DNA from: Spirochaetaceae bacterium
GTDB taxonomy: Bacteria; Spirochaetota; Spirochaetia; B11-G9
DNA: 44,717 bases
Assembly (NCBI GenBank): GCA_015493635.1
Contig: WGCU01000084.1
Coordinates: 1-44,717 of the forward strand
Direction: 5' to 3'
The position numbers and the translations under genes were made by a program. Below, in pieces: positions 163 to 41,222 of the stretch. Numbering within the stretch: position 1 is the stretch's first letter; the number at the start of each line of letters is the position of its first letter. The notes under the pieces are model-generated. The model ran no database searches and was not told the DNA's origin. It was given only the letters and a program-made list of their open reading frames with translations.

Positions 163-192
163 TTGCTGTCTGAGACAATAATGGTGTACTAT
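163..192 (+). promoter_or_regulatory. candidate promoter of the FAH gene, near-leaderless
   Basis: TTGCTG (163-168), 18-bp spacer, TACTAT (187-192); the ATG is at 200, only 7 nt after the -10. The AAAGG next to the ATG is too close to act as a Shine-Dalgarno. A weaker upstream alternative is TTGATA (74-79), 15 bp, TATAAA (95-100). The rest of 66-162 is AT-rich with no gene seen. Confidence 0.4.
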
Positions 193-199
193 AAAAGGT

Positions 200-913
200 A
201 TGAAAGTTTTACTGCCAATCAAGGGAAAAGAAGAGCCTTTTGTACTGAATCCTTCAAAGATAATAGCTCTGGGGCTGAATTACAGGAACCATGTCAATGA
301 AAGCGGTTTTTTAAACAGAAATAATCTTCCTGAAGATATCCCTTCCGAGCCCATTCTCTTTGCCAAGACGCCCAATGTGCTGATAGGCAGCAACGAAACC
401 ATCATCATTCCGAAATTCATCAGAAAGGACTATAATTTTGAAAAGGTAAGGATCGATTACGAAGCGGAGTTAGCCGTTATAATAGGGAAACACTGTCACA
501 ATATACCAGAGGAAGCGGCGCTTTCCTGTGTATTGGGGTACACCTGCATGAATGATGTAAGTATGCGCAACTTCCAGACAACTGACAAATCCGGCTGGTT
601 CAGGGGCAAGTCTCTTGATACGTTCGGGCCTGCCGGTCCGGTTATTGTACCGGCTGAGGATATTCCTGATCCGCAGAATTTGAGAATAACCTGCCGGCTG
701 AACGGCAAAACAGTGCAGGATTCCAATACCTCCCACATGATCTTCTCCATAAAGGAAACAATAGCGTTTATCTCCAAACAGATCACCCTGGAACGGGGAG
801 ATATCATAATGAGCGGAACACCCAGCGGCGTCGGCCCTTTGAAAGACGGCGATGTGGTAGAAGTTGAAATAGAGGGGATCGGGATCCTAAAAAACAAGGT
901 AGCGGAAGAATGA
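200..913 (+). CDS. fumarylacetoacetate hydrolase (FAH/FAHD1) family protein
   Basis: A 237-residue single-domain FAH-fold protein. Family hallmarks appear in order: GLNYRNH (25-31), the acidic metal-binding pair in YEAEL (E88, E90), ND at 118-119 followed by a VSMRNFQ version of the usual VSARDxQ, KSLDTFGPAGP (137-147), and GTPSGVGPL near the C-terminus. Members use Mg2+ to hydrolyse or decarboxylate acylpyruvates, oxaloacetate or ring-cleavage products; the substrate cannot be read from sequence. Length is typical of the short YcgM/FAHD1 group. The stop overlaps the ATG of a GC-rich small frame. No catabolic neighbours are present, so a housekeeping role such as oxaloacetate or acylpyruvate removal is likelier than a dedicated pathway (inference). 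Confidence 0.85.
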   Translation: MKVLLPIKGKEEPFVLNPSKIIALGLNYRNHVNESGFLNRNNLPEDIPSEPILFAKTPNVLIGSNETIIIPKFIRKDYNFEKVRIDYEAELAVIIGKHCHNIPEEAALSCVLGYTCMNDVSMRNFQTTDKSGWFRGKSLDTFGPAGPVIVPAEDIPDPQNLRITCRLNGKTVQDSNTSHMIFSIKETIAFISKQITLERGDIIMSGTPSGVGPLKDGDVVEVEIEGIGILKNKVAEE

Positions 914-1083
914 ACAAGGATTTGAGGTTCCCGGAAGGGGGAGCGGAAAACCCGGCTTCCGCGCCGGTGGAGGGAGACCGGAACCGGATGAACGCGGAAG
1001 CGGACCCAGCAGAGCTCCCTGCCCGGCCCTCCATACTGCCGGGCGGGGTTGGAGCGGGGGGAAGGCTTTCCCCCCTGACATAA
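910..1083 (+). CDS. small 57-residue reading frame in a GC-rich island, doubtful
   Basis: An ATG overlapping the FAH stop as ATGA opens a 57-codon frame beginning MNKDLRFPEGG and ending RLSPLT. The ATGA arrangement resembles translational coupling. However, the whole stretch is strongly GC-rich, and long frames on the opposite strand are open too, so openness is weak evidence. The residues are low complexity (Pro, Gly, Ala, Glu) with no recognisable domain. It is more likely a by-product of the structured island than a gene. Confidence 0.2.
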   Translation: MNKDLRFPEGGAENPASAPVEGDRNRMNAEADPAELPARPSILPGGVGAGGRLSPLT

Positions 1084-1085
1084 TC
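914..1085. repeat. GC-rich, hairpin-rich intergenic island (candidate dispersed element)
   Basis: About 170 bases are far more GC-rich than both neighbours. They hold three perfect inverted repeats: GCTTCCGCG (955-963) with CGCGGAAGC (993-1001); GCCCGGC (1021-1027) with GCCGGGC (1038-1044); GGGGGGAA (1056-1063) with TTCCCCCC (1068-1075), loop GGCT. None is followed by a T-run on either strand, so it is not a classical terminator. The compositional break suggests an inserted repeat or a structured RNA. Only one copy lies in this window, so 'repeat' is an inference. Confidence 0.4.
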
Positions 1086-1099
1086 CGGTTAAAAAAACC

Positions 1100-2974
1100 T
1101 TACAGCGCTTTTTCCATGAGCCGGTTCAGCCGTTTTACAAAGTCAGCGGGTTTTTTAAGCTCCGCACCCTCCATGAGCATGGCCTGTTCGAGAAGCATAA
1201 AACTTACATCGGCAATAAAATCCTTGTCATCAATCGAAGAAAGCTTCTTGACAATCTCATGATCGGGATTCACTTCAAGAATGGGTACAAAATCGGGAAT
1301 ATCCTTCTGCCCCATGGCCTTGAGCATCTGCTGCATCTGTACGGTGGGGTCGTTTTCATCAGCTACAATGCATGAGGGAGAATCACTTAAACGGCTGGAA
1401 ATAACAACGTCCTTGACCTTGTCTCCAAGAGCATCCTTAATCTTTTTCAAGACCGGCTCTATCTTTTTTCCCGCTTCTTTGTCTTCTTCCGTTTTAAGAT
1501 CCTCAGCGGATCCGCTCTTGTTAACCGATTTAAGATCTACATCCTTGTATTTCCCAATGGAAGGAATAACGATTTCATCAACTTCATCACTCATAATAAG
1601 GACTTCGTACCCTTTCTTTACGTACCCTTCAATAAGGGGCGAACTCCGAAGGGTATCCTCATTATCACCGGTAACGAAGTAGATGGCCTTCTGATCTTCC
1701 TTCATCCGATCCTTGTACGCAGCAAAGCTGGTCCATCCTTCCACTTCAGTCGACTTAAAACGGACAAGTTCAAGAAGCGTATCCCTGTTGGCGTAATCCG
1801 AGTAGAGCCCTTCCTTCAGGGGCCGGTTGTACTGCTCAATAAACTCATCATACTTTTTCTGATTACTTTTTGAAAGACTTTTCAATTCCCCAAGGACTTT
1901 TTTTACCGACGCACTGCGGATACTTGCCAGGACCCGGTTCTGCTGGAGTATCTCCCTGCTTACATTCAACGGAAGATCCTCTGAATCGATAATTCCCCGC
2001 AGGAATCGGAGGTATACCGGCATCAGTTCCTTCTCGTCATCGGTTATGAATACTCTGTTAACATACAGCTTGACTCCTGGTTTGAAATCAGCCTGATACA
2101 TATCAAAAGGAGCTTTTTTAGGTATATAAAAAAGTGTTGTATATTCCAGTGTTCCTTCTGCTTTTGTATGTATGTAGAGGAGCGGATCTTCATTGTCATG
2201 GCTTATGGTTTTATAAAATTCGTTGTAGTCCTCATCAGTCAGGGCGGATTTGGACTGTTTCCATAGAGCAGAGGCCTTGTTTACCTGCTCGTTTTTGTGA
2301 ACCTTCTTCTCCTTCCGGTTATCCCCCTCTCCTTCATATTCAGTATCATCATACTCAAGAAAAATAGGGAAACCGATATGGTCGGAGTACTTCTTTATGA
2401 GGCTCTCAAGCTCCCATTTCGAGGCGTACTCAGTCCCTTCATCATTAAGGAAAAGAGTAATTTCAGTTCCAAAGGATTCTTTTTCCGCTTCTTTTACAGA
2501 ATAGGCTGTCTGTCCGTCGCTTTCCCAGAACCATGCCTGATCCTCCCCTGCTTTCTTTGTAAGAACGGTAACTTTATCCGCCACCATAAACGCGGAATAG
2601 AATCCAACACCAAACTGCCCTATCAGGGAAGCATCTTTTTTAGAATCTCCGGAAAGACTGTTTAAAAAACTTTTTGTCCCTGACCGGGCTATGGTTCCCA
2701 GCTGGGCGTCGAGATCCTCAGCATTCATTCCAATTCCGGTATCCCTGACAGTAAGGGTCTTTTTATCCTTCCCGTCAAAGGTTATTTCAATTTTGGGATC
2801 AAACTTCAATTTTTTGTATTCATCTTCGGTAAGGGTAAGATATTTTAATTTATCCAATGCGTCCGAAGCATTTGAAATAAGCTCCCTTAGAAAGATCTCT
2901 TTGTGCGAATACAGTGAATGAATTATAAGATGAAGCAGCTGGGATACTTCAGTTTTAAATTTCTTTTTGGACAT
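1100..2974 (-). CDS. htpG: molecular chaperone HtpG (Hsp90)
   Basis: A 624-residue Hsp90 homologue, the usual bacterial length. The GHKL ATPase domain shows ELISNASDALDK (Mg/ATP Asn), DTGIGM and GQFGVGFYS. The middle domain carries LPLNVSREILQQNR, and the C-terminal dimerisation domain ends with an ExxMLMEGAEL segment. It is a cytosolic ATP-dependent chaperone. The start is set at MSKKKFKTE (2974): GAGAGGAG lies 5-7 nt upstream, and the next in-frame ATG (3022) lies upstream of the predicted promoter start site. Its sigma70-type promoter overlaps a perfect dyad. It is divergent from the CNNM gene. Confidence 0.97.
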   Translation of the reverse strand: MSKKKFKTEVSQLLHLIIHSLYSHKEIFLRELISNASDALDKLKYLTLTEDEYKKLKFDPKIEITFDGKDKKTLTVRDTGIGMNAEDLDAQLGTIARSGTKSFLNSLSGDSKKDASLIGQFGVGFYSAFMVADKVTVLTKKAGEDQAWFWESDGQTAYSVKEAEKESFGTEITLFLNDEGTEYASKWELESLIKKYSDHIGFPIFLEYDDTEYEGEGDNRKEKKVHKNEQVNKASALWKQSKSALTDEDYNEFYKTISHDNEDPLLYIHTKAEGTLEYTTLFYIPKKAPFDMYQADFKPGVKLYVNRVFITDDEKELMPVYLRFLRGIIDSEDLPLNVSREILQQNRVLASIRSASVKKVLGELKSLSKSNQKKYDEFIEQYNRPLKEGLYSDYANRDTLLELVRFKSTEVEGWTSFAAYKDRMKEDQKAIYFVTGDNEDTLRSSPLIEGYVKKGYEVLIMSDEVDEIVIPSIGKYKDVDLKSVNKSGSAEDLKTEEDKEAGKKIEPVLKKIKDALGDKVKDVVISSRLSDSPSCIVADENDPTVQMQQMLKAMGQKDIPDFVPILEVNPDHEIVKKLSSIDDKDFIADVSFMLLEQAMLMEGAELKKPADFVKRLNRLMEKAL

Positions 2975-3143: not shown

Positions 3144-4385
3144 ATGATACTTGAAATTTCAATACTCTGTTTACTTCTCATTCTCTCCGCAATTTTCTCT
3201 GCGACAGAAACCGCTTTTATATCCCTTTCCATGGTACAGATTGAAGAATGTGCTGCAAAATACGGACGTCGGGGGAAACGTGTTAAATCGCTTATGGAAA
3301 ATACAAACACACTGCTGACGACCATTCTTATTGGGAACAATCTTGTAAATATTTCCGCTTCCGCAATTGCGACCCACATAACCATAGAAAAATTTGGAAG
3401 TAAGTCCATTGGAATTACAACAGGAATACTGACTCTTGTTATCCTGATATTTGCTGAAGTAACACCAAAACAGATTGCAATTATGCACAATGAACAGATT
3501 TCACTCTGGATGTCTTCCTTTATCAGATTTCTTGAGATAGTACTTTTCCCTGTTATTAAGCTGATTGGATTTATGAGTTCCCTTCTCACAAGGCTCTTTC
3601 AAAAAGAACAGAAAAAGAGTGTATCCATGGATGGTATTATCCACATGATACGCCTCGCTGAGCATGAGGGTGTTGTTGAATCCTACGAATCCAAAATGGT
3701 AAAGAATGTATTCAGATTCAACGATACTCCCATTCAGGCAATAATGACCCATAGAAGAGAAGTGTTCAGTCTCGATAAAAAACTAACCCTTCATGAAGCC
3801 ATTGACAGTATTATAGAAAAAGGGTTTTCCCGAATACCGGTTTACCATGAGAATCCGGAAGATATCGTAGGGATTGTGCTTCTGAAAGATATCATTTCCT
3901 GTCTTGCAAAGGACGACACAGAACAGCAGTTGAAGGATATTATGGTAAAACCTCTGTTTGCATCAGGAAACCGTAAAGTAAATGAACTTTTTTCTCTTTT
4001 TAAAAGTGAAAAGTTGAATATTGCCGTTATTGTTGATGGATACGGAGGACTGTTGGGAATCGTTACCATGGAGGATATAACCGAGGAGCTTTTCGGTGAA
4101 CTGTACGACGAACATGAAGAAAAGGGTATGGAAAAGATAACGAAAATCGATGAAGAAACGTACCGTATACTCGGAGACACTCCCGTACAGTTTTTTAATG
4201 ACAGATTTGAAAGCACTATTCCATACAGTAAAAATGCAAGGACCCTTGCCGGCTATCTGGTGGAGTACCTGGGAAATATCCCTGTTCAGGGTCAAAAAAT
4301 AAAAACGCCCTTTGGAGATTTTACCATTGAATCGGTTGTGCATAACAGGATTAATTCAGTCCTTCTCACCTATCACAGCCGTTGA
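3144..4385 (+). CDS. CNNM/CorC-type membrane protein with CBS pair (hemolysin/TlyC-like)
   Basis: 413 residues. The N-terminal CNNM (DUF21) domain has about four membrane segments within residues 1-150, including the signature [11 protein letters not shown] and an ILIGNNLVN motif. Two CBS domains follow (roughly 190-310), with [13 protein letters not shown] and [20 protein letters not shown]. The C-terminal CorC/HlyC transporter-associated domain (about 325-410) ends the protein. The family is linked to Mg2+/Co2+ efflux or homeostasis; the hemolysin name is historical. No convincing Shine-Dalgarno or close -10 precedes the ATG. The start is kept because it opens the first hydrophobic segment. 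The stop codon overlaps the leuS -35 box. Confidence 0.85.
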
Positions 4386-4410
4386 CGAGGGGACTCTCTA
4401 CAGGTATCAT
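4382..4410 (+). promoter_or_regulatory. leuS promoter embedded in the upstream stop codon
   Basis: TTGACG (4382-4387) contains the upstream gene's TGA. A 17-bp spacer and TATCAT (4405-4410) follow. Only 7 nt separate the -10 from the leuS ATG at 4418, so transcription should begin at or within 1 nt of the start codon. No Shine-Dalgarno is present. Confidence 0.6.
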
Positions 4411-4417
4411 TCCCCCT

Positions 4418-6826
4418 ATGAACAAATACCCTTTTACACAAATCGAAAAAAAATGGCAGAATTACTGGGAAAGCCATAAAACATTTAAAGCTTCCGAAAA
4501 CGCGGCTGTGCCGAAAGAAAAAAGGAAGTATGTTCTCGATATGTTCCCCTACCCCTCAAGCCAGGGGCTTCATGTGGGGCATCCCGAGGGATACACGGCA
4601 ACTGATATTTATTGCAGATATCTCCGGATGACCGGCCACAACGTTCTCCATCCTATGGGGTTTGATTCCTTCGGACTTCCCGCGGAAAACTACGCTATAA
4701 AAACAGGGACACATCCAAAAGCAACAACAGAAGACAATATAAAGAGGTTTACACGGCAGATAAAAACACTTGGTTTCAGTTACGACTGGGATAGACAAGT
4801 TTCGACCCATACACCGGAGTACTACCGATGGACCCAGTGGATTTTTCTTAAGCTGTATGAAAAGGGACTGGCGTATGAATCTGAAACCCCGATAAATTGG
4901 TGTCCTTCCTGTAAAACAGGTCTTGCAAACGAAGAGGTTAAAGACGGAAAGTGTGAACGGTGCCACACCCCTGTTTACCGGAAAAATATCCGGCAATGGG
5001 TTCTTAAAATTACAGAATACGCGGAACGCCTCCTTAATGATATTGATAAACTCGACTGGTCTGATGCCATAAAAACAATGCAGCGTAACTGGATCGGCCG
5101 TAGTGAAGGCGCAGATGTTACCTTTCTTGTTGCGGGAAGCAGAGAACCTATCTCCGTCTATACAACCCGGCCTGATACACTTTTCGGAGCAACCTACATG
5201 GTTCTTTCCCCGGAGCATGAACTGGTAGACAAAATTACCACAGCCGATAAGAAAGATGCTGTTGAAGCATACAGGATTCAGGCAAGTAAAAAATCAGACC
5301 TTGAACGTACCGATCTTGCAAAAGAAAAAACCGGAGTCTTTACCGGAGCATACGCAGTAAATCCGGTAAATGATAAAAAGATTCCTATATGGGTAGCAGA
5401 TTACGTCCTTATTTCCTACGGCAGCGGGGCAATTATGGCTGTACCGGCCCACGATACCAGAGACTGGGAGTTTGCAAAGAAATTCAATCTTCCCATTATT
5501 GAAGTTCTTCAGGGAGGGAACGTTCAGGAAGCCGCCCATACCGGTGAAGGGAACCATGTAAACTCAGGATTTCTGGACGGTCTCGGGAAGGAAGATGCCA
5601 TTAAAAAAATGATTACCTGGCTGGAAGAGAGAAAAATCGGGAAAGGTACGGTGAACTACAAACTCCGGGACTGGATTTTTTCCAGACAGCGGTACTGGGG
5701 TGAGCCGATACCTCTTGTTCATTGTGATTCATGCGGTATTGTTCCTCTTGATGAAAAGGATCTCCCTCTGACTCTTCCTGATGTTAAAAGCTACACACCG
5801 ACAGGAACAGGAGAATCTCCCCTGGCCGGTATTGACGAATGGGTAAATACTACCTGCCCGAAGTGCGGCGGACCGGCGAAACGGGAAACAAACACCATGC
5901 CCCAGTGGGCCGGATCCTGCTGGTACTATCTCCGGTATCTTGATCCCCACAACGATAAGGAGTTTGCATCCCGGGATAAAATTGATTACTGGATGCCCGT
6001 AGACCTTTACGTAGGCGGAGCGGAACACGCGGTACTGCACCTCCTGTATGCCCGGTTCTGGCATAAGGTACTCTTTGATATTGGTGCAGTAAATACGGAT
6101 GAACCCTTTCAGCGTCTTGTCAACCAGGGAATGATTCTTGGGGAAGGCGGCGTCAAAATGTCCAAATCTCTGGGAAACGTTATCAATCCTGATGATATCA
6201 TCAATGATTTCGGCGCTGATACCATGCGCCTGTATGAGATGTTTATGGGCCCGCTGCAGGTTTCGAAACCATGGTCCATAAAAGGTGTTGCCGGAGTCCA
6301 CCGGTTTCTCGACCGTGTATGGCGGGTTTCCGAACGGGAACTTTCCCGTGAACAACCCCCGGCGGAACTGGTTAAGCTGCTTCATCAGACAATAAAGAAG
6401 GTCTCCCACGATACTGCCAACTTGGAGTTTAATACGGCGATTTCCCAGATGATGATATTTATCAACGGCATTTTCAAGGAAGAACTCCTGTATACGAACC
6501 TCTGGGAACCCTTCGTTCTTCTCCTTGCACCTTACGCACCTCATCTCGGAGAAGAACTCTGGGAAAAGCTCGGGCATTCAGAAACCCTTGCCTATGCTGC
6601 CTGGCCGTCTTGGGATGAAAACCTGATAAAAGAGGATACTGCGGAGATCGTTGTACAGATCAATGGGAAAGTCCGGACAAAACTTCACCTGCCGGCGGGT
6701 ACAGTAAAAGAAGAACTGGAAAAAACCGCTTTTGCACAAGAAAGAATACAGTCGCTTCTGGAAGGGAAAACTGTTGTGAAAACTATCGTGGTACCTGACA
6801 AGCTTGTTAATATTGTAGTGAGGTAA
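4418..6826 (+). CDS. leuS: leucyl-tRNA synthetase
   Basis: 802 residues from the ATG at 4418 (MNKYPFTQ), the conserved N-terminus. A TTG at 4382 is in frame but lies upstream of the predicted transcript start. Class I signatures are HVGH (52-55, the HIGH motif) in [17 protein letters not shown] and KMSKS (580-584). The CP1 editing domain shows [19 protein letters not shown], and there are two CxxC zinc-like pairs (WCPSC...CERC). The C-terminal anticodon-binding and LeuRS-specific tail ends [12 protein letters not shown]...[14 protein letters not shown]. It charges tRNA-Leu and edits mischarged products in the cytosol. It ends directly against the convergent lipoprotein gene. Confidence 0.97.
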
Positions 6827-8177: not shown

Positions 8178-8206
8178 TTGAAAGACTCTTGATTTTAACC
8201 GATAAT
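8178..8206 (+). promoter_or_regulatory. promoter of the 8216 gene, near-leaderless
   Basis: TTGAAA (8178-8183), 17-bp spacer, GATAAT (8201-8206). The ATG at 8216 is 9 nt further, predicting a 5' leader of about 3 nt. Confidence 0.55.
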
Positions 8207-8215
8207 CTGTACCAT

Positions 8216-9634
8216 ATGGAAGATGCAGATACTTTTTTATCAGATCTTGAAGGAGTTTTAAATAATTACAGGGAGTATCTTAACACCAAAGAACTTCCGG
8301 AGCTTAAGGAACATTTTCTTCTGTATAAAAGTGTCTTTGACGGTTTTACCAGTCTGCTATTAAAAAAAGGACTTATCACCGAAGATCCGTATAAGTACGA
8401 TGAAAAAATCTCTGAGGTTAAGGCTCCGTCAAAGCATCCTGTTACTGATTCCGAGAAGGGTGGAGAAATAAGCCAACGCCTGTCTCAGTTTGAACGTCAG
8501 CTTGATTTTTTAAATCATTTTTTCCAGTTCAGTGTGGATTTCATGACCCTCCCGAGGATAAAAGACATCACATCCATCGTCCGGTGGATAAATTGGGATA
8601 ATCTCAGCAGTGCATCAACCGAGGTCAACACACAAATTCTCGGAGAAATCGCGGACAAAATCAAGCAGGGAACCGATCCCATGTCCATAAGCATTCTAAC
8701 CGATTCGATAAAAAAATTAAATTCCATGAGTAAACACATGCTGTCAATACTCAAGAAAGTCTCTGCGTACCAACGTGAGAAATATAAGTTTGACGTAAGA
8801 TCAAATATTCTTGTTCCCCTTTCCATAACACAGGAACAGATAGCCGGAAACGAAAACGATTTTTTTAGATTAGTCAAAAATAATTTCAGGCAGAAAATGG
8901 GAGAGGGAGTTCCTTTTATAAAAAGCCTCCTTATGGAGATAAGAGCAGAAGAGATATCTCCCGAAAAAGAAGAGCTGAAAAAAGAAATTCTAAAAAAGCT
9001 TGAGGTAAAAAAGAAGGTAAAAAAGAAGAAAAAGGTAAATTACCGTCCTCTTGTTATGGAATCGTTGAAAATACTCTCTTCTGCAGGGCCTGTACTGAAT
9101 GATGCCCTTAACAAGATACAGGAGAACAGCAGACTCCTGCAGAGCAGGAACCTTACCTTCGGAGAAAAATTCCGCATATGGATTATGAATCTTTCAGGTA
9201 AGAGCAAAAACAGTGTGTATGAAATTGAATACTTTGATGAAATGACATCGGTACAAAAAAGAACAAAAATCGATTTTGACGCGTTTCTTGAGCAAGGGTT
9301 TAAAGAAGCCCGTATCATCTCCGCCCTGGGAAATAAAGTCAGTGCCACCTGGCAAAAACTTGAAAAAGCACCCGAGGAAACAATTCTGACCTTTCTCGAC
9401 AAGCATATTGCAGCAGCAAGAAATATTTCACTAAAACTTGATCCGCTGAATGTCTATTTTAAAAGCGAGCTTTCTCCTGCGGAAAGAAACAGGATACGGG
9501 GTATCAAACTTGAAGTATCTTCCATAAAAAGCTCATTGCAGAAAGCTCATAAAAAACGTCTTGAGTACGTTTCCCGGATGGAAGAAATGACACAGATGGA
9601 AAAACTCGGTATCGATACATCGGAAGAAGAGTAA
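8216..9634 (+). CDS. lysine-rich, partly helical protein of unknown function
   Basis: 472 residues from the ATG at 8216 (MEDADTFLSDLEG). An in-frame TTG at 8189 lies upstream of the predicted transcript start and is disfavoured. No signal peptide or membrane segment is visible. Long stretches are helix-like, and there is a striking basic run, KKKVKKKKKVN, around residue 270. It separates an N-terminal part (about 1-260) from a C-terminal part (about 275-465) that looks like another helical module. I do not recognise a family. The basic linker suggests nucleic-acid or membrane-surface contact, but that is inference. It ends 1 nt before the convergent aroF-pheA stop. Confidence 0.75.
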   Translation: MEDADTFLSDLEGVLNNYREYLNTKELPELKEHFLLYKSVFDGFTSLLLKKGLITEDPYKYDEKISEVKAPSKHPVTDSEKGGEISQRLSQFERQLDFLNHFFQFSVDFMTLPRIKDITSIVRWINWDNLSSASTEVNTQILGEIADKIKQGTDPMSISILTDSIKKLNSMSKHMLSILKKVSAYQREKYKFDVRSNILVPLSITQEQIAGNENDFFRLVKNNFRQKMGEGVPFIKSLLMEIRAEEISPEKEELKKEILKKLEVKKKVKKKKKVNYRPLVMESLKILSSAGPVLNDALNKIQENSRLLQSRNLTFGEKFRIWIMNLSGKSKNSVYEIEYFDEMTSVQKRTKIDFDAFLEQGFKEARIISALGNKVSATWQKLEKAPEETILTFLDKHIAAARNISLKLDPLNVYFKSELSPAERNRIRGIKLEVSSIKSSLQKAHKKRLEYVSRMEEMTQMEKLGIDTSEEE

Positions 9635-9635: not shown

Positions 9636-11534
9636 TCAGGGTCTTTTTACCCTGTATTTTCCCAGGATTCTGATATTATCTGCATAGTCAGCAAGTTCCG
9701 AAAGAGCATCATCAAGAACGGTTTTTTCTTCAGGTATATCAAGAGAAAGAAAAAACATGTATTCCCATGGTTTCCCGTGAATGGGACGGGATTCAAGCTT
9801 GTTCATATTTATTTTTTTCTCAGCAAGAACATTCAGACATTTCAGAAGCGCCCCCGGTTTATCCTGTGTGGAAAAGACAATAACAGCCCTGTTAGGATTT
9901 TCCGAAGCATCCCTTTCTATCCGGGAAATAATAAAAAACTTTGTATAATTCCGCGGGTTCGTTTCAAGACCGGCTTTAATAACTTCAAGGTTATAGACCC
10001 GCGCAGCTTCAGCTCCGGCTATAGCTGCTTTTGATGGATCTTTCATTTCCGCAATATGCGCCACCGCTCCGGCGGTATCATAAAACGGAACACTTTTTAT
10101 ACCGGGATGTTCTTCAAAAAATTCCCCGCACTGAGCAAGCCCCTGGGGATGAGAATATACCTCTTCTATGTTTTCTACCGAAGCCCCTTTTAGACCAATT
10201 AAATTGTGCTTGATCCGTAAACGGTACTCTCCTGTTACCGCAATATCAGGATACCGAAGGAGAAGATCAATATTTTCATTGATGGTTCCTGCCAAAGAGT
10301 TCTCAACAGGAATAACACCATATTCAGCACTCCCGTTTAAAACCGAATCAAATACATCTCTGAAAGAAGCACAGGGTAAAGATAGCGCTTCATCACCAAA
10401 ATACGCATGCAGGGCCTTTTCACTGTATGCACCGGGAACTCCCTGAAAAGAAATTCCTCCGGTACCAGTTTTTGAAGCCAGCCGGATTTCTTTAACCGCC
10501 GGCGGCAGATCTTCAGGAAGGCATTCTATTTCCTTTCCCACAACCGGAGAAAGAGCCTGGATATCCCGCATCAAATTTTCAAACTCTTCAGGGTACAATG
10601 ATTGGGGGCCGTCAGAAAGGGCTTCATCAGGATGCGGATGTACCTCAATAATGAGGCCGTCAGCTCCCGCCGCGATTGCAGCCAGAGCCATAGGGGGAAC
10701 TTTAGCACGAATACCTGTCGCGTGGCTGGGGTCAACGATAACAGGAAGATGGCTCAGTTTCTTCACCACAGGTATTGCAGATAAATCAAGAGTATTCCGG
10801 GTATAGGTTTCAAAGGTACGTATCCCCCGTTCACAGAGGATAACATTGTCCGTTCCGTTTGCCATAAGATATTCTGCGGCCATAAGCCATTCTTCAATGG
10901 TTGCGGAAAGTCCCCGCTTTAACACGACAGGTTTTCCTATTTTACCGACAGTTTTCAGCAGCTCAAAATTCTGCATGTTACGGGCACCGATCTGAAAGAC
11001 ATCAACGTAGTCTTTCATCATATCAGCATACCTGGTTCCGACAATTTCCGTCACTACAGGAAGGCCCGCGGAAGATCCAGCCTCTTTCAATATCCTGAGC
11101 CCCTCTTCACCCATTCCCTGAAAGGAATAGGGTGATGTCCGGGGTTTAAAAGCCCCACCCCGCAGCATGACAGCGCCGGATTCCCTCACAGCCCGGGCCG
11201 CTTCAAACATCTGTTCTCTTGATTCAACAGCACAAGGTCCAGCGATAACCGCTATTCTGTTTCCGCCGATTTTAACGTTTCCAACCGGTACAACAGTATC
11301 TTCATTTTTTAATTCCCGGGAAGCAAGCTTGTATGGTTTTGATATGGGAATAACCCGGCTGACACCATCGAGGATTTCCACTTCACGGAAATCTATGCTG
11401 ACATTGCCGACGGCACCGAAAACGGTATCATGATCTCCAACTATTTCCCGGACCTGAAATCCCTTCTTCTCAAGAAAACTGCGAACAGCATTCTTGTCCT
11501 GCGTATCAATATGCTGTTTTAAAACGACTATCAT
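9636..11534 (-). CDS. fused DAHP synthase (type I-beta) - prephenate dehydratase - ACT protein
   Basis: 632 residues with four parts. Residues 1-70 are a ferredoxin-like regulatory domain. Residues about 85-340 are DAHP synthase: AVIAGPCAVES, MLRGGAFKPRTSPYSFQG, QIGARNMQNF, VIVDPSHATG, GADGLIIEVHPHPDEALSDG. Residues about 358-540 are prephenate dehydratase: ISFQGVPGAYSEKA, GVIPVENSLAGTI, and NYTKFFII at the catalytic TRF position (Lys for Arg). An ACT domain ends the protein with DKPGALLKCL and ESRP, the phenylalanine-binding motifs. It would catalyse the first shikimate step and the last committed step to phenylpyruvate in the cytosol. The ATG lacks a Shine-Dalgarno but has a close promoter. 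Confidence 0.93.
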   Translation of the reverse strand: MIVVLKQHIDTQDKNAVRSFLEKKGFQVREIVGDHDTVFGAVGNVSIDFREVEILDGVSRVIPISKPYKLASRELKNEDTVVPVGNVKIGGNRIAVIAGPCAVESREQMFEAARAVRESGAVMLRGGAFKPRTSPYSFQGMGEEGLRILKEAGSSAGLPVVTEIVGTRYADMMKDYVDVFQIGARNMQNFELLKTVGKIGKPVVLKRGLSATIEEWLMAAEYLMANGTDNVILCERGIRTFETYTRNTLDLSAIPVVKKLSHLPVIVDPSHATGIRAKVPPMALAAIAAGADGLIIEVHPHPDEALSDGPQSLYPEEFENLMRDIQALSPVVGKEIECLPEDLPPAVKEIRLASKTGTGGISFQGVPGAYSEKALHAYFGDEALSLPCASFRDVFDSVLNGSAEYGVIPVENSLAGTINENIDLLLRYPDIAVTGEYRLRIKHNLIGLKGASVENIEEVYSHPQGLAQCGEFFEEHPGIKSVPFYDTAGAVAHIAEMKDPSKAAIAGAEAARVYNLEVIKAGLETNPRNYTKFFIISRIERDASENPNRAVIVFSTQDKPGALLKCLNVLAEKKINMNKLESRPIHGKPWEYMFFLSLDIPEEKTVLDDALSELADYADNIRILGKYRVKRP

Positions 11535-11540
11535 GTAATC

Positions 11541-11569
11541 AGGCTATTTACTATACTTCCCCGTGTCAA
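11541..11569 (-). promoter_or_regulatory. aroF-pheA promoter, leaderless
   Basis: On the minus strand: a perfect TTGACA (11569-11564), 17 bp, then TAGCCT (11546-11541), a poor -10. Six nt later is the ATG (11534). The -35 lies inside the 3' end of the upstream transglycosylase gene. The weak -10 lowers confidence. Confidence 0.4.
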
Positions 11570-14034: not shown

Positions 14035-14043
14035 TGATATACT
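14035..14043 (+). promoter_or_regulatory. extended -10 promoter of the NTPase gene, leaderless
   Basis: TGA followed by TATACT (14038-14043), then six nt to the ATG at 14050. No Shine-Dalgarno is present and no strong -35 is visible, which fits an extended -10 promoter. Confidence 0.45.
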
Positions 14044-14049
14044 CTTCTC

Positions 14050-19378: not shown

Positions 19379-19388
19379 GTATACTGTT

Positions 19389-25810: not shown

Positions 25811-25816
25811 GAACGG

Positions 25817-26502: not shown

Positions 26503-26509
26503 TCTTTCC

Positions 26510-28432: not shown

Positions 28433-28515
28433 TTTTTCAAGCTCCTCCTTTTTCCTTATCGAAAGAACAAATGAACTGCTATAGCTGTTTTTCCTAAAAA
28501 GTGTAAAATAGAAGT

Positions 28516-29280
28516 ATGAATAAGAAATTTCAGTTTTATACCGTTTACGCAATCCTTATATTTACGTTTCTTATGATTCTCCTTTCCAGTGGGTTTCTTT
28601 TGTACAGCTGGCCGTTATTATCCATAACAATACGGTACGCTTTCATCATAATCCTTACGGAAATCTCTTTTTCTTTTATTTTTATCCTTTTATTCAGATC
28701 GATCTTTACAAAAACTTCATCTCCTGAAATTTTTTTTATTATTCTTGCTCTTGGAGGTATTCCTTTTGAAGCATTCAGAACCCTGGTTTATCCTACCCAT
28801 CTTTTCAGCAAACTGTATCCGCTGTACAATTTTCTGCCCAGAGCAGTTTATTTTGGTAAACTCCTGACAGCTCTGACTCTTTTTATATCAGGTTTATTCT
28901 CAACCGGATTCTCACTCCAAAAACAAAAATCACTCCTTGGACTCGCTGTCCTTCTCGCTTTTCTGCTTTCAACAACAGTACCCATTGATTTTTCTGTTAA
29001 CGGAGCCATACTTCTTCCCGGAAGCAGATCACCATACATCATGCAGAATATACTGTACAGTTTTTATATTCTTGCCTGGCTTAATTATCTGACAGGAGCA
29101 CTTATAAAAAAAAATAAGGAATTTATATTTGCAGGTATGGGGATTGCCCTTTTTGCGGCAGGAGTTGAGTTGATTTTCCCACTCCATACCGGAGTATGTC
29201 TGTTTACAGGATTTGGATTTTTTCTTTCAGGATTAACCCTTATTGCGTATGGAATAAATAAAATATACAGCTGGATGTAG
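28516..29280 (+). CDS. multi-spanning membrane protein, unknown
   Basis: 254 residues with about seven membrane segments and short charged loops. N-terminal MNKKFQFYTVYAIL then a long hydrophobic run. No family is recognised; the 7TM layout loosely recalls signalling receptors with 7TM domains, but no output domain is present. The start lacks a clear Shine-Dalgarno; TAAAAT (28504-28509) ends 6 nt before the ATG without a good -35. It is divergent from the secreted protein gene and convergent with the polyprenol-kinase-like gene (1-nt gap). Confidence 0.65.
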   Translation: MNKKFQFYTVYAILIFTFLMILLSSGFLLYSWPLLSITIRYAFIIILTEISFSFIFILLFRSIFTKTSSPEIFFIILALGGIPFEAFRTLVYPTHLFSKLYPLYNFLPRAVYFGKLLTALTLFISGLFSTGFSLQKQKSLLGLAVLLAFLLSTTVPIDFSVNGAILLPGSRSPYIMQNILYSFYILAWLNYLTGALIKKNKEFIFAGMGIALFAAGVELIFPLHTGVCLFTGFGFFLSGLTLIAYGINKIYSWM

Positions 29281-31750: not shown

Positions 31751-33022
31751 ATGACCGTTTTTATGCAGGCCCCTGTTATTGTAAAGATACTCGTTTCTCT
31801 CACCGTCATTCTTGTCATAAATAAAGCTGTAAAGGACCTGTCTTTCTCCATGGTAATAGGAATACTTGCCATTGCATTCTGGTCAGGGCAGCCGCTCTCA
31901 GCTGCTGCAGACATCACATGGAAGCGGTTCTGGAGCCTTGATAACGGGATGCTTTCCGCTATTATTATTCTTGTTATCTGGCTTTCCTCCCAAATGGCAG
32001 CAGCAGGTATAATGAACGATCTCGTCAGGACAATAAAGGCAAAACTTTCTTTCAAGGGAGCTCTCATTGTCCTTCCTGCGGTGATAGGGTTGCTGCCCAT
32101 GCCGGGGGGTGCTTTATTTTCAGCTCCCCTTGTAGATGACTGTGATGAATCAAACGGTATTGATCCGCTTTTAAAAACAAGAATCAACTACTGGTTCCGG
32201 CATATATGGGAATACACCTGGCCGCTCTATCCGGGACTTATTCTTACATCGGGTATCAGCGGGCTTCATATCTGGCAGCTTTTTCTTCTTGGAATCCCCA
32301 TGACATTGATGGCAGTATTATCCGGCTATTTCTTTTTTATCCGTAAAATCAGGGTTTCATCCGGCGGACGGAAAAATGCCGAACATCATTTTTTAAAACT
32401 TATCTCTCCCATCCTCACTGTTATAGGCGTATACGCGGTTATTCTTATATTTTTCCCCTCCCTTTCCCGGATAAACAAGTATCTGCCAATGACAGCAGGG
32501 CTCCTGTCCGCAATACTTCTGCTTCAGATAATGCGTCCCCTGGGTATCTCACAATGGAAAAAAATCATCTTTGCAAAAAAACCGGTAACAATGGTACTTA
32601 TTGTTATTCTTGTCAGGATTTACGGTGCTTTTATTGAAGCAAAATTACCCGGAGGGACGTACCTGATGGACCAGATGAGACTGGAACTTAATGCCGTTGG
32701 AATCCCTATCACCCTCCTCATACTCCTTATTCCTTTTATCAGCGGTGTAACAACAGGAGTTTCCGTGGGATTTGTCGGTGCTTCCATGCCCATTGTTATT
32801 TCTCTTCTTGGATCTGATCCAGACCTCTCCCACTTGCTGTCCACCGTTATTCTTTCCTTTTCCTTTGGATTTATGGGAGTAATGCTTTCTCCGGTTCATG
32901 TCTGTCTTATTGTTACAAACGAATACTTTAAAACAAATCTCACAAAAAGCCTTACCGCCATTATGCTGCCTGCCGCAACCATGATGGTTGCAGCACTGGT
33001 ATACGCTAAAATTCTGTGGTAA
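31751..33022 (+). CDS. DUF401 family membrane protein (predicted permease)
   Basis: 423 residues with about ten membrane segments. The family signature LLPMPGGALFSAPLVDD is at about residues 115-131; FIRK and a VTTGVSVGFVGASMP segment near the C-terminus match the second repeat. DUF401 belongs with ion-transporter-like permeases; the substrate is unknown. It sits directly behind the SPFH gene, so the two are likely co-expressed, and an SPFH scaffold could organise the permease (inference). Confidence 0.82.
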   Translation: MTVFMQAPVIVKILVSLTVILVINKAVKDLSFSMVIGILAIAFWSGQPLSAAADITWKRFWSLDNGMLSAIIILVIWLSSQMAAAGIMNDLVRTIKAKLSFKGALIVLPAVIGLLPMPGGALFSAPLVDDCDESNGIDPLLKTRINYWFRHIWEYTWPLYPGLILTSGISGLHIWQLFLLGIPMTLMAVLSGYFFFIRKIRVSSGGRKNAEHHFLKLISPILTVIGVYAVILIFFPSLSRINKYLPMTAGLLSAILLLQIMRPLGISQWKKIIFAKKPVTMVLIVILVRIYGAFIEAKLPGGTYLMDQMRLELNAVGIPITLLILLIPFISGVTTGVSVGFVGASMPIVISLLGSDPDLSHLLSTVILSFSFGFMGVMLSPVHVCLIVTNEYFKTNLTKSLTAIMLPAATMMVAALVYAKILW

Positions 33023-33025
33023 ACT
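33020..33025 (+). promoter_or_regulatory. extended -10 overlapping the DUF401 stop codon
   Basis: TGG then TAAACT (33020-33025), where TAA is the DUF401 stop, and 6 nt later the ATG at 33032. No Shine-Dalgarno is present and the -35 is poor. This is a possible leaderless start embedded in the preceding stop. Confidence 0.3.
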
Positions 33026-33031
33026 ACAGCC

Positions 33032-33439
33032 ATGAATACACCGGATTTTAACGAGCTTGAGGGGAAAAAAGAAGAGATAATCAGAGAAATCAACGAATAC
33101 AACAAAGAGCGTGATCAGATAAAAATGATGCTGGGGAAAATCGGGGGAGCTGCCTATTCGAGCATAGACATGACCATCAACATTGTGTTTCTCGCCATTA
33201 TCATCGGTCTATTTACTCTTGAGTTTACTACTCACTGGCTCCCTGCCAATATCTCACTGGAAGTCAGTGTTCTTCTTGTATCAATTAAAATTGTCTGGAT
33301 GATTCATTCACAGTACAAAGCGAATCATTTCCAGTTCTGGATTCTTAATTCAATCGAATACCGCATGAACACTGTCACAGGGAAAGTAAAAAAAATTGAA
33401 AAAACCATTGATGAAATAAATAAAAAACTTTCTTCTTAA
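33032..33439 (+). CDS. small two-helix membrane protein with coiled-coil ends
   Basis: 135 residues. An N-terminal charged helix (about 8-35), two membrane segments (about 45-65 and 72-92), and a C-terminal coiled coil (about 105-135, MNTVTGKVKKIEKTIDEI). Both charged ends probably face the cytoplasm. No family is recognised. It follows DUF401 by 9 nt and could be an accessory subunit of the SPFH/DUF401 pair (inference only). Confidence 0.65.
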   Translation: MNTPDFNELEGKKEEIIREINEYNKERDQIKMMLGKIGGAAYSSIDMTINIVFLAIIIGLFTLEFTTHWLPANISLEVSVLLVSIKIVWMIHSQYKANHFQFWILNSIEYRMNTVTGKVKKIEKTIDEINKKLSS

Positions 33440-33487: not shown

Positions 33488-33493
33488 TATACT
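33488..33493 (+). promoter_or_regulatory. -10 close to the FHA-like/PIG-L start
   Basis: TATACT lies 10 nt before the ATG at 33504, predicting a leader of about 4 nt; the -35 is weak. A GGGAG word is 16 nt or more upstream, too far for normal initiation. Confidence 0.35.
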
Positions 33494-33503
33494 GAGATTT
33501 ATC

Positions 33504-34898
33504 ATGCTGATACTCTCTGAAATACCTGATTCCACGTATCTTTTTGATCTCTATCGAAATAAAAATTTTCTGCTGACGTTTGAAATAAATGAGAAGGAAA
33601 TTGCTACTTCAGAAATTCTTCCTGATTTCAAAGACAAGCGGTTAACAATTATTTTAGGAAAAGAAGGGGCTAAAGTACATTTAGATGCGACAAAACCTGT
33701 TCTTGTCAATGGAGTCGCGTGCCGCAGACGGACATTGAAAGAGAACGATATTCTCTTCCTTGGTCCGTACAGACTTGTTTTCAAGGGAGAACGCCGAAAA
33801 CCTGAATCGATAACTGTTCAACCTAAAAACCCCCGGTACAAAAAGAAGAGAAGAAAAACGTTTCTTTCTTTCAGACATTTTCTTGAAGCTGCCGCAATTC
33901 TCGCTTCTGTATCTTTTTTATGGTACTGTACAACTCAGATGCCGGTACAACGGAGACCTGAGGCTGCTCATCTCCCCATTGTTTCCAAAGGGCACGAAGC
34001 TCCTCCCCCAACTGAAGAAAAAAAAGAAAAAATCCCAAAACCTTCTTCCGAGGCAGGACCGCATATCTCTCTTCTTACCTATGCACCCCATTCAGTCTTT
34101 ACACCCAAAAAGCTTGATATGCTCTTTGTTCATGCTCATCCGGACGATGAAACCCTGGACTATGGACTTTATATATCAAAAGCAGTCGAAGCAGGGAAGG
34201 TAATTGGTGTACTTACCTTTACCGATGGAGAATCAGGATTTGACTTTTACCCTGACCGTGATACAACAGGAATCTACCCAAATAAAGAACTGCATGGGAA
34301 AGAACTGGCTGCTGTCCGTGTAAAAGAAGAGGAAAGAGCCCTGAAAATTCTTGGTGCTTCCGTATACATCCGGCTTGGATTAAAAAACCGCCCATACACT
34401 GCTGTAGAGGTAAAAAAATCAATACCTACCATCATAAAAGAGTGGGGCGGGAATACCGTTCTTGTCAATAAGCTCAATACCATCTTTACCGCCTTTGATC
34501 CGGCTGTTATCGTTTCACCGGACGGGCCTTCACATGCACGGGAGCATTTTGAGCATGAAGCGGTAGGGTATATCACTGCCCGGGCTGTAACCTTGTACCG
34601 TCAAAAAAATCCCGGTAAACTCCAGGCCTATCTTAAACTTGTTGATGTTCAGCAGGCAGAAGCCTACCCGGAAAAGCATCTTCGGACAATCGGGTTTTCA
34701 GAAGGGAATTCTGATATTGTAAGAAAAAAGAGGAATGCTCTCCTGCAGTATGAAACCCAGGCAGACGCATCCTATTACGGTATAAAACGTCTAAAAAATT
34801 TCCCCTTTGAATATTACTTTATTCAATATATAAACACACAGAACAGTGCTGAACTACTTCTTGATTCTTCAGGAAGAAAAACAGCACAAGCTCATTAG
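33504..34898 (+). CDS. FHA-like domain - TM - PIG-L deacetylase fusion
   Basis: 464 residues. Residues 1-95 are beta-rich and FHA-like: LTIILGKEGAKVHLDA, VLVNG, and ILFLGPYRLVFKG, but without the SxxH phosphothreonine pocket. A basic stretch (110-125) precedes a membrane segment (about 126-142) and a Pro/Lys/Glu linker. PIG-L/LmbE (about 203-445) has HAHPDDET with zinc ligands H212 and D215, and SHAREHFEHEAVG with H348/H351. The catalytic domain should face the periplasm, with the FHA-like part inside. The family removes N-acetyl groups from GlcNAc-type substrates with Zn2+. Confidence 0.78.
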   Translation: MLILSEIPDSTYLFDLYRNKNFLLTFEINEKEIATSEILPDFKDKRLTIILGKEGAKVHLDATKPVLVNGVACRRRTLKENDILFLGPYRLVFKGERRKPESITVQPKNPRYKKKRRKTFLSFRHFLEAAAILASVSFLWYCTTQMPVQRRPEAAHLPIVSKGHEAPPPTEEKKEKIPKPSSEAGPHISLLTYAPHSVFTPKKLDMLFVHAHPDDETLDYGLYISKAVEAGKVIGVLTFTDGESGFDFYPDRDTTGIYPNKELHGKELAAVRVKEEERALKILGASVYIRLGLKNRPYTAVEVKKSIPTIIKEWGGNTVLVNKLNTIFTAFDPAVIVSPDGPSHAREHFEHEAVGYITARAVTLYRQKNPGKLQAYLKLVDVQQAEAYPEKHLRTIGFSEGNSDIVRKKRNALLQYETQADASYYGIKRLKNFPFEYYFIQYINTQNSAELLLDSSGRKTAQAH

Positions 34899-39066: not shown

Positions 39067-39075
39067 TGTTATACT
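39067..39075 (+). promoter_or_regulatory. extended -10 of the second bifunctional-nuclease gene
   Basis: TGT then TATACT (39070-39075), 10 nt before the ATG at 39086. No Shine-Dalgarno; predicted leader about 4 nt. Confidence 0.4.
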
Positions 39076-39085
39076 AATTTATACG

Positions 39086-39574
39086 ATGCATAAAAAATTG
39101 CAGGAATTTACTATCATGGGTATCGCCCTGGATGGGAAAAACGGACTACCTACCGTCATTCTCAAATCTCTGGATACAAAAAGTTTTCTCCCTTTGGAGA
39201 TAGGACCTTTTGAAGCCAGTGCCATTATCATTGAAATTGAAAATGTTAAACCTTCCCGGCCGATGGCTCATGACCTCATTGCAGAACTTTTTATACGGCA
39301 CGGCTTAAAGCTCTTGAATCTTACGATCTATCAAAAACTTGAAACTGACTACCTGGCAAAAATTGAATATAGAAAAGGGGTACGCCGCTACACGATGGAG
39401 GTGCGTCCCAGTGACGGTATAGCCGTTGCCATACGCCTTGGCACTCCGATCCTTGTTACCCAGGAAATTATTAACGCGTCCGATAAAGGTACGTCGATTC
39501 TTGATTCCATGGATAACATTTCTTCCGAAATTCTCTATTTCGAATCGAATAACATCGGTGCTCACCTAATGTAA
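39086..39574 (+). CDS. bifunctional nuclease (DUF151) domain protein, second paralogue
   Basis: 162 residues from MHKKLQEFTIMG (39086); the longer frame starts upstream of the -10. BFN pattern: GIALDGKNGLPTVILKS, FLPLEIGPFEASAIIIEIENV, RPMAHDLIAELF, MEVRPSDGIAVAIRLGTPILV. It lacks the C-terminal UVR motif present in the paralogue at 22038. Probable cytosolic nuclease or regulator; activity unproven. It is divergent from cheR and lies 40 nt before pyrG, whose promoter begins just after this gene's stop. Confidence 0.87.
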   Translation: MHKKLQEFTIMGIALDGKNGLPTVILKSLDTKSFLPLEIGPFEASAIIIEIENVKPSRPMAHDLIAELFIRHGLKLLNLTIYQKLETDYLAKIEYRKGVRRYTMEVRPSDGIAVAIRLGTPILVTQEIINASDKGTSILDSMDNISSEILYFESNNIGAHLM

Positions 39575-39577
39575 GAA

Positions 39578-39606
39578 TTGCTATTTACTGCACTCTTCTT
39601 TATAAT
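39578..39606 (+). promoter_or_regulatory. pyrG promoter, leaderless
   Basis: TTGCTA (39578-39583), 17 bp, consensus TATAAT (39601-39606), 8 nt, ATG (39615). The transcript should begin within 0-3 nt of the start codon. No Shine-Dalgarno is present. Confidence 0.6.
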
Positions 39607-39614
39607 CATGGTAC

Positions 39615-41222
39615 ATGAGAAAGTATATATTTGTAACAGGCGGTGTTTGTTCAAGTCTCGGAAAAGGAGTTGCCGCAACTTCACTCGGTAATCTGCTTGA
39701 AAGCAGGGGACTAAAAATTACCATGCTCAAGATCGATCCTTATCTGAATGTCGACGCAGGAACTATGAGTCCCTATCAGCATGGAGAGGTATACGTCACT
39801 GAAGACGGTGCGGAAACAGATCTTGATCTAGGTAACTATGCCCGGTTCACCAATTCCGTCCTGGGAAGGAAAAACTCAATAACAACGGGGCAGATATACC
39901 AGGAGGTTATCAAGAGAGAGCGGGAGGGACGCTATCTTGGAAAAACAGTCCAGGTTATTCCGCATATTACCGATGAAATCAAACGCAGAATTGTACTTGC
40001 CGGAAAAAATCCTGATGTTGATGTTGTCATCACGGAGATCGGCGGAACCGTGGGGGATATTGAATCAGTCCCTTTCCTTGAAGCAGCGCGCCAGTTTGTA
40101 AGTGATATGGGCAAAGAAAATACACTGTTTATTCATCTTACCCTTATTCCTGAAGTGGCGGGGAAGGAACTGAAAACAAAACCGACCCAGCATTCGGTAA
40201 AAGAACTACGGGAAATCGGTATTCAGCCGGATATCCTCATCTGCCGTTCACCAATACAGATAGACAAGGATATGATTAAAAAGATTGCTCTCTTTACCAA
40301 TGTCGCATCTGATTCAATTATTTCAGCCTACGATATAAAAACCACAATCTATGAGATCCCTCTTATTTTTCATGCTCAGGGGCTTGATAAAATTGTATTG
40401 GAAAAAATGAATATTCCCCGTTCCAAAATTGATTTCACTGAATGGGCAGCAATGGTTAAAACCTTTAAGACCTCATCACGCACCGTTAAAATTGGTATTG
40501 TCGGAAAATATATCAACCTTAATGACGCTTATAAGTCGGTTTATGAATCGATCTTCCACGGCGGCCTTGCCAATAAAGTACGGATAGAACTCATTAAAAT
40601 TGATGCGGAGGATATTGAAGGGGCACAGGATCTGGATACAATTTTCAGCAGTGTGCATGGTATTCTAATTCCCGGCGGATTTGGTCAGCGGGGCATCCAG
40701 GGGATGATTTCCTCCGCAGAGTATGCCAGGACCCATGGAATCCCCTGTTTTGGTATCTGTCTCGGAATGCAGATAATGGTTATTGAGTATGCACGAAACG
40801 TTCTTGGATATAAAGATGCAGACAGTACAGAATTCAAACCCGCAACTTCTGCACCGGTTATCAGCCTACTGGAAGAACAGATCAATGTTAATAATTTCGG
40901 GGGAACCATGCGTCTCGGGAAAAGTGAATCTTTTGTACAGGAAGGAACCCGGCTCCATCAGATATACGGGAGCAGTACAATTTTTGAACGGCACAGGCAC
41001 CGGTATGAAGTATCCAATCAGTACCGCGGTGAACTGGAAAAAGCCGGCCTCATTATCAGTGCTCTTACTCCTGATAAAACGCTTGTTGAATCCGTTGAGT
41101 GGCCTGATCATCCATGGGGAATAGGAGTTCAATTCCATCCGGAGTTTTTATCGACGCCGATTAATCCCCACCCGCTTTTTTCAAGCTTTATCAAGGCAAG
41201 CAACGATTATGGTAAAAAATAG
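39615..41222 (+). CDS. pyrG: CTP synthase
   Basis: 535 residues, the usual length. N-terminal synthetase domain opens KYIFVTGGVCSSLGKGV (P-loop-like ATP site), with DPYLNVDAGTMSPYQHGEV and EIGGTVGDIES. The glutaminase domain (about 290-530) has GGFGQRG, GICLGMQ with nucleophile C382, and FHPEF with H508 and E510. It makes CTP from UTP, ATP and glutamine in the cytosol. The stop overlaps lptC by 14 nt, so lipopolysaccharide export genes may ride on its transcript. Confidence 0.97.
   Translation: MRKYIFVTGGVCSSLGKGVAATSLGNLLESRGLKITMLKIDPYLNVDAGTMSPYQHGEVYVTEDGAETDLDLGNYARFTNSVLGRKNSITTGQIYQEVIKREREGRYLGKTVQVIPHITDEIKRRIVLAGKNPDVDVVITEIGGTVGDIESVPFLEAARQFVSDMGKENTLFIHLTLIPEVAGKELKTKPTQHSVKELREIGIQPDILICRSPIQIDKDMIKKIALFTNVASDSIISAYDIKTTIYEIPLIFHAQGLDKIVLEKMNIPRSKIDFTEWAAMVKTFKTSSRTVKIGIVGKYINLNDAYKSVYESIFHGGLANKVRIELIKIDAEDIEGAQDLDTIFSSVHGILIPGGFGQRGIQGMISSAEYARTHGIPCFGICLGMQIMVIEYARNVLGYKDADSTEFKPATSAPVISLLEEQINVNNFGGTMRLGKSESFVQEGTRLHQIYGSSTIFERHRHRYEVSNQYRGELEKAGLIISALTPDKTLVESVEWPDHPWGIGVQFHPEFLSTPINPHPLFSSFIKASNDYGKK

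Follow-up and report, generated by a model that had tools for sequence, protein, structure and literature searches.

In the genome of a Spirochaetaceae bacterium (GCA_015493635.1), about 7–11% of genes very probably give rise to leaderless mRNAs from sigma70-type promoters positioned at the start codon itself. The starting point is contig WGCU01000084.1 (44,717 nucleotides, analyzed over its full length and hereafter called the window), which belongs to an assembly of 3.27 Mb in 101 contigs. An original prediction, made from the window's sequence, had noted −10-like words ending 6–10 nt before thirteen ATGs and had read them as a sign of widespread leaderless mRNAs, a trait it did not know as a general feature of spirochaetes. 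The first part of this claim stands as the best reading of promoter position, −35 element, gene context, preference for ATG and conservation at three genes; the second does not survive a look at the literature.

For a genome-scale view, the window was combined with 40 further stretches of the assembly, yielding 792,367 bases (~24% of the total). Gene calling relied on a hexamer coding model, with starts set by coding score alone, so that upstream signals could not bias the choice of start. Of 695 called genes, 682 had 60 nt of upstream sequence and were kept (the 13 with shorter upstream regions were left out); 247 lacked a Shine-Dalgarno (SD) motif, 197 had weak SD matches and 238 had an SD. 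A 16S search of the assembly gave no match, and the organism's own anti-SD was therefore not read. Promoters were assessed with a joint −10/−35 score: for window genes at −15 to −11 relative to the ATG, each compared with 1000 shuffles, and genome-wide at a threshold admitting ~3% of shuffles. The underlying weight tables derive partly from the same genomes that were scored, each p-value being relative to shuffles of the same upstream region.

Counting the −10-like word TANNNT by position, split by SD class as the original prediction had proposed, revealed a sharp peak in genes without an SD and none in the SD class. The word occurred at −14 to −12 in 64/247 no-SD genes as compared to 23.1 ± 4.6 (maximum 37) in 500 dinucleotide shuffles of their upstream regions, and in 4/238 SD genes. 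Its first T was at −12 for 31 no-SD genes and at −13 for another 20, against ~6 per position farther upstream; together these are 51/247 genes vs 15.3 ± 3.8 in shuffles. SD genes contributed three and zero cases at −12 and −13, with TANNNT instead forming a broad hump from about −20 to −33, and the 197 weak-SD genes showed no peak (6 and 5 at −12 and −13). This is the position from which a sigma70 −10 box would have transcription begin at the A of the start codon.

Chance words in A+T-rich intergenic DNA, the good ones having been picked out by a reader, would be the simplest alternative, and upstream DNA in this genome is indeed 63% A+T, with TANNNT at ~2% per position. However, none of the 500 shuffles reached the observed count, and 2224 intergenic ATGs that are not starts showed no peak (0.024 per position at −13/−12 vs 0.022 at −40 to −20). 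The −35 element and its spacing emerge independently of the −10 word, a relative with 62% GC carries the word in 13/38 genes against a background of 0.9, and at three genes the promoter persists from family to family at the spacer identities given below. Given the shuffle results, the intergenic ATGs and the separately emerging −35, we reject chance and cherry-picking, an explanation we consider extremely improbable.

The −35 was examined in 149 candidates pooled from nine spirochaete genomes and aligned on TANNNT alone, the −35 playing no part in their selection. At a spacer of 17, TTGAC emerged (T 0.67, T 0.56, G 0.45, A 0.41, C 0.33). Four or more of the six TTGACA letters were present in 83/149 candidates vs 26.5 (maximum 37) in 200 shuffles, and in 49/252 cases where the same TANNNT word lay farther upstream. 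The boxed promoters thus look like ordinary sigma70 promoters, with transcription predicted to begin at the A of the start codon or no more than ~2 letters away. In our own genome, the exact pattern TTGAC-N17-19-TATNAT, counted by its distance to the following ATG, occurred 22 times at 6–8 nt (16 distinct, as repeats inflate the count: six plus two copies are identical), and four times each at 9–11 and 12–14 nt.

Gene context pointed in the same direction. Among no-SD genes, the word at −14 to −12 was found in 35/80 divergent genes and in 16/36 genes following a same-strand gap of 21–60 nt, as opposed to 3/54 operon-internal genes (gap ≤20 nt); genes at a sequence edge gave 3/16. Except at larger gaps (see below), such a bias is expected of promoters that overlap the start codon. 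The start codon was ATG in 67/72 joint-score candidates vs 492/610 other genes, consistent with translation from a 5′-terminal AUG. As to the extent of the phenomenon, the excess of TANNNT over background corresponds to 6.7% of all genes, the joint score passes 72/682 (10.6%), and two mixture models expect 64 and 74 leaderless-type genes, suggesting a share of about 7–11%.

From these observations we infer where transcription starts and how translation begins. A sigma70-type promoter (TTGAC, 17 bp, TAtAnT) would have its −10 mostly ending 6–8 nt before the ATG, so RNA polymerase should begin at the A of the ATG itself or ~0–2 nt from it. The resulting mRNA would have neither leader nor SD, and the ribosome would consequently have to recognize the 5′-terminal AUG directly, as has been described for other leaderless mRNAs (quoted in a streptococcal study, PMC6431027). 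This route would account for a larger share of divergent no-SD genes than of genes overall.

Returning to the window, all thirteen ATGs and their words are present as described, and ten of the genes reached p ≤ 0.05 in the joint score (Table 1). The five highest scores belong to pyrG, leuS, the gene for a DAHP synthase/prephenate dehydratase fusion, a symporter gene and a TP0584-family gene. They are the same five to which a −35 at 17 bp had been ascribed, and a TTG-led hexamer at exactly this spacing was found in each. That none of the thirteen has a usable SD proved correct for most; the genes at 4418 and 26510 have a four-letter match 12–13 nt away, and those at 19389 and 33504 reach free energies (dG) of −3.9 and −5.9, respectively. 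The converse assertion, that genes with an SD lack the box, holds for those window genes whose SD word has at least five letters, save for the gene at 12467 (six-letter SD plus TATCAT, p 0.026). As for the essential genes said to belong to the set, the pth named among them shares this genome with a second pth match. At the genome-wide threshold, 10/43 window genes pass (nine of the thirteen, plus 12467) vs 62/639 sampled genes from elsewhere in the genome (Fisher p 0.01), the window itself having been picked for its striking look. Two starts call for caution: 25817, which follows the preceding gene by 15 nt, is doubtful, as the gene caller begins the gene at 25967, while the ATG at 33032 is only 9 nt past its neighbor and could therefore also be read within an operon. 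Rfam and tRNA searches of the window returned no match.

Table 1 Candidate leaderless-type promoters of the window, weak cases and a contrast gene
Gene	Position	Strand	Start (ATG)	−35	Spacer	−10 or −10-like word	p (joint score)	Remark
FAA hydrolase family gene (200-913)	163..202	+	200	TTGCTG (163-168)	18	TACTAT (187-192)	0.010	Pfam FAA_hydrolase
leuS	4382..4420	+	4418	TTGACG (4382-4387)	17	TATCAT (4405-4410)	0.001	
TP0584-family gene	8178..8218	+	8216	TTGAAA (8178-8183)	17	GATAAT (8201-8206)	0.006	NCBIfam TP0584_fam
DAHP synthase/prephenate dehydratase fusion	11532..11569	-	11534	TTGACA (11564-11569)	17	TAGCCT (11541-11546)	0.001	
NTPase family gene	14038..14052	+	14050			TATACT (14038-14043)	0.014	Pfam NTPase_1; no good −35
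Start at 25817	25805..25819	+	25817			TACTAT (25805-25810)	0.010	Doubtful start
Na:dicarboxylate symporter family gene	26474..26512	+	26510	TTGATT (26474-26479)	17	TATTGT (26497-26502)	0.003	Pfam SDF
Gene at 28516	28504..28518	+	28516			TAAAAT (28504-28509)	0.047	Borderline; weak −35
Gene at 33032	33020..33034	+	33032			TAAACT (33020-33025)	0.006	
pyrG	39578..39617	+	39615	TTGCTA (39578-39583)	17	TATAAT (39601-39606)	0.001	
pth copy	19373..19391	+	19389			TATACT	0.12	Weak case; word ends 10 nt before ATG, second TATACT ends 3 nt before
Gene at 33504	33488..33506	+	33504			TATACT	0.64	Weak case; word ends 10 nt before ATG
Gene at 39086	39070..39088	+	39086			TATACT	0.32	Weak case; word ends 10 nt before ATG
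htpG	1100..2974	-						Contrast gene; SD present, no −10 box at leaderless position

Conservation was assessed by reading the region before the start of leuS, pyrG, the TP0584-family gene and htpG in 30 genomes. One orthologue per family was scored (the best BLAST hit; our own genome for its own family, f1, all family labels being arbitrary), and orthologues were omitted if they had <60 nt of upstream sequence or if no start was found close to the projected position. A promoter at the leaderless position (p ≤ 0.05) preceded leuS in 18/21 families (17/20 without our own), pyrG in 14/20 (13/19) and the TP0584-family gene in 8/10 (7/9). By contrast, htpG had such a promoter in 0/22 families (0/21 without our own) and an SD word of at least four letters in all 22. 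For leuS, both promoter elements hardly vary between families (−35 TTGAC, −10 TATNAT), as opposed to a spacer identity of 0.27 and an agreement of 0.30 for the letters after the −10; spacer identity was likewise 0.27 for pyrG, and the spacers of the TP0584 family were more alike (0.47). Where the leuS promoter is missing (three families: f7, f20, f22), there is a four- or five-letter SD match, as there is, with four letters, in two families that carry the promoter (f1, f4). These genes were picked from a window chosen for its striking examples.

Outside the spirochaetes, the box preceded pyrG in 2/72 loci, one of which is filed as Aquifex. Of seven named spirochaete loci, four were positive in the automatic word test (L041, L043, L044, L045) and one shows TTGACA plus GATACT by eye (L042); L046 and L079 have no box. 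Separately, the pyrG genes of G015, G018 and G026 (L172, L174, L176) are more distant (44–54% identity), carry a 4–5 letter SD match and lack a promoter in the leaderless position, which would fit replacement or transfer. The TP0584-family protein (window 8216-9634), whose function is unknown, was present in 17/30 genomes searched, our own included, and in many of them a TTTTA stretch lies directly 5′ of the −10.

Eight other families of the class were sampled at 200 kb each, and their no-SD first genes were scored for the word at −14 to −12. The word stood out in four of these genomes, given here as hits per no-SD first gene (in brackets, mean and maximum across the other 3-nt windows): G014, 13/38 (0.9, 2); G012, 15/53 (2.6, 6); G015, 12/46 (1.7, 5); and G029, 15/48 (3.9, 8). 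The corresponding value for our own genome is 61/193 (15.4, 23). In G025 (10/49; 4.5, 10) and G013 (10/51; 3.5, 11), some other window equals or exceeds the leaderless position, and it is the joint score that argues for these two. That score passes 9–17% of first genes in 7/9 class genomes, compared with 3% of shuffles. Pooled Firmicutes loci showed no peak (7/73; mean 6.2, maximum 10).

The exact pattern extends the view to 150 genomes of the phylum; sums cover 28 genomes of our own class (own included), 26 of f35—a family of another class—and 13 of f44, the other 83 not being summed. At 6–8 vs 12–14 nt before an ATG, the pattern occurred 272 vs 102 times in the class, 733 vs 262 times in f35 and 100 vs 78 times in f44. 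Among 30 relatives, there were 258 occurrences at 6–8 nt and 119 at 9–11 nt, again with repeats (six identical strings among the 13 of G012 at 9–11 nt). In 25 further records, those behind the named loci, the 6–8 vs 12–14 nt counts were 28 vs 1 for four Spirochaetaceae/Treponema metagenome-assembled genomes (MAGs), 14 vs 6 for the Treponema MAG L079, 7 vs 8 for the ‘Spirochaetes’ MAG L046, 147 vs 115 for seventeen Firmicutes and 3 vs 2 for two gammaproteobacterial records. Per genome, f35 has the highest counts of the summed multi-genome groups, though inflated by near-identical strings seen among its listed matches; leaderless-type promoters may be commoner there.

Several results weigh against leaderless mRNAs as a general account of these genes. 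First, 183/247 no-SD genes have no word at −14 to −12, so leaderlessness does not account for all genes of this class, and some other initiation route probably exists for the remainder. This would suit a mechanism in which initiation depends on a leader but not on an SD (for instance through ribosomal protein S1 on A/U-rich leaders), the −10 position being a coincidence of compact promoters. For the boxed genes, however, a transcription start 6–8 nt after the −10 would fall so close to the ATG that no leader fits in between, making this mechanism a very improbable explanation of them. Second, only 7/61 same-strand no-SD genes behind a gap of >60 nt carry the word, a low figure that promoters overlapping the start do not account for. 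Third, decoy ATGs within genes showed raised values at −13 in frame (0.028) and −14 out of frame (0.036) vs 0.016 elsewhere; these bumps, probably caused by codon phase, are well below the peak at starts (0.126 at −12). Fourth, A+T-rich, 1.2-Mb G026 shows no excess (7/43; mean of other windows 6.6, maximum 9) and G028 little (6/70; 3.3, 8), neither giving a clear signal and each passing the joint score in 1% of first genes, which leads us to reject a uniform class-wide pattern.

A fifth point concerns conservation as a general rule. Across 148 reciprocal-best orthologue pairs between our genome and the eight other families, genes that are leaderless-type here (nine distinct) were leaderless-type in the other family in 2/13 pairs, vs 13/135 for other genes (Fisher p 0.39). 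The FAA hydrolase gene, for example, yielded one pair (in G029), where it is SD-type. In some of the 11 missed pairs, the promoter lies, by eye, a few nucleotides outside the scored range; the fusion gene of G012 was counted as a miss on these grounds, having a similar promoter with 4 nt more before the ATG. An earlier version of the test, based on called starts, gave 3/15 vs 7/96. General deep conservation of leaderlessness is thus unsupported, and what the upstream comparisons indicate is deep conservation for three genes, not for leaderless genes as a class. It is in our judgment an even bet that a small core (leuS, pyrG, the TP0584 family, possibly joined by the DAHP synthase fusion) was already leaderless in the ancestor of the class Spirochaetia and has been kept so by selection, most other leaderless genes being gained and lost over time. 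If true, leader-based control of these core genes would have been excluded throughout the history of the class.

Finally, three of the thirteen noted genes (19389, 33504, 39086) failed the joint score, their TATACT falling by eye outside the scored range. These cases would fit a scenario in which the promoters are real but produce very short leaders (~3–10 nt), or in which the annotated ATG goes unused in favor of an SD-led ATG downstream. The −10 of the TP0584-family gene, ending 9 nt 5′ of its ATG in our genome, and the more distant box of the G012 fusion gene agree with short leaders as well. The genome-wide peak at −12/−13 speaks against them, and a displaced start is at odds with the scarcity of SD-led alternatives within 30 codons (2/72 joint-score candidates), with the alignment of leuS and pyrG to their relatives from residue 1 in most families, and with the family-model matches of the pth (19389) and fusion (11534) proteins from residues 2 and 1, respectively. 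We therefore consider either variant unlikely and favor initiation at, or within ~2 letters of, the 5′ end.

Leaderless genes are already documented in spirochaetes and are a known kind of feature, as three papers attest, contrary to the original prediction. Zheng et al. (2011; PMC3160421) identified leaderless genes by TANNNT ~12 bp before the start in 207/953 bacterial genomes, tied them to operon position, and list them for 6/18 Spirochaetes genomes (average 3.9%, range 1.8–6.9%). Differential RNA sequencing (dRNA-seq) of Leptospira interrogans placed 430–450 primary start sites within 10 nt of a start codon (PMC5243855), and a Borrelia ribosome paper mentions leaderless mRNAs at high frequency in Borrelia burgdorferi (PMC10618245). 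The genes described here resemble the TA-led genes of Zheng et al. in the position of TANNNT, above chance ~12 bp before the start, and in its link to operon position: the genes that carry it mostly lack an SD, tend to be first in a transcription unit (divergent rather than operon-internal) and often have a −35 at ~17 bp. They differ in share, 3.9% there vs ~7–11% here, although our measures are other and partly looser ones, so that the figures are not directly comparable. The same signal and the same inference apply to Deinococcus-Thermus and Actinobacteria, whose averages in that survey are higher (39.4% and 19.2% of genes).

Like our bacterium, L. interrogans is a spirochaete with many start sites 0–10 nt from the start codon. 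There, starts were measured, whereas here they are predicted from promoter words; a clear TTGAC/TATAAT is present here, whereas the Leptospira authors found a sigma54 motif and no other promoter motif. Streptococci are similar in leaderless share (8.6%, 67 mRNAs) and in gene-specific conservation, 54/67 being common to two species (PMC6431027). Conservation there lies within one genus, whereas the promoter geometry of leuS, pyrG and the TP0584 family is kept across families of one class. The orthologue comparison of Zheng et al. covered Actinobacteria and Streptococcaceae, not spirochaetes, and among the entries listed in one open-access library we found no paper on class-wide leaderless conservation in spirochaetes, pyrG not having been searched by name. 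What we did not find in print, and deem worth keeping, is how deep the arrangement goes at single genes (leuS, pyrG, the TP0584 family), as opposed to htpG. Nothing known is overturned; rather, a known property is extended to a little-studied spirochaete family and, by joint score, to seven of the nine sampled class genomes. Leaderless genes bear on start annotation and on how ribosomes choose a start without an SD, and three widely distributed genes behaving opposite to htpG make selection for leaderlessness testable at single genes.

A few further observations concern individual loci. The fusion gene (window 9636-11534, minus strand) encodes a single protein with DAHP synthase, prephenate dehydratase and ACT domains, uniting the first step of the aromatic amino acid pathway with late ones. 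The two pth (peptidyl-tRNA hydrolase) matches of our genome lie at window 19389-19913 and at G000:C81:116066-116542, and two matches were likewise found in 16/30 genomes searched. With one of two copies concerned and mixed upstream regions among the orthologues, pth was dropped as an example of conserved leaderlessness and not scored. Lastly, one identical leaderless-type promoter–ATG string occurs six times in the genome (contigs C4, C7, C23, C37, C64 and C65), twice at a contig end, and possibly marks a repeated mobile element whose gene uses a leaderless-type start.

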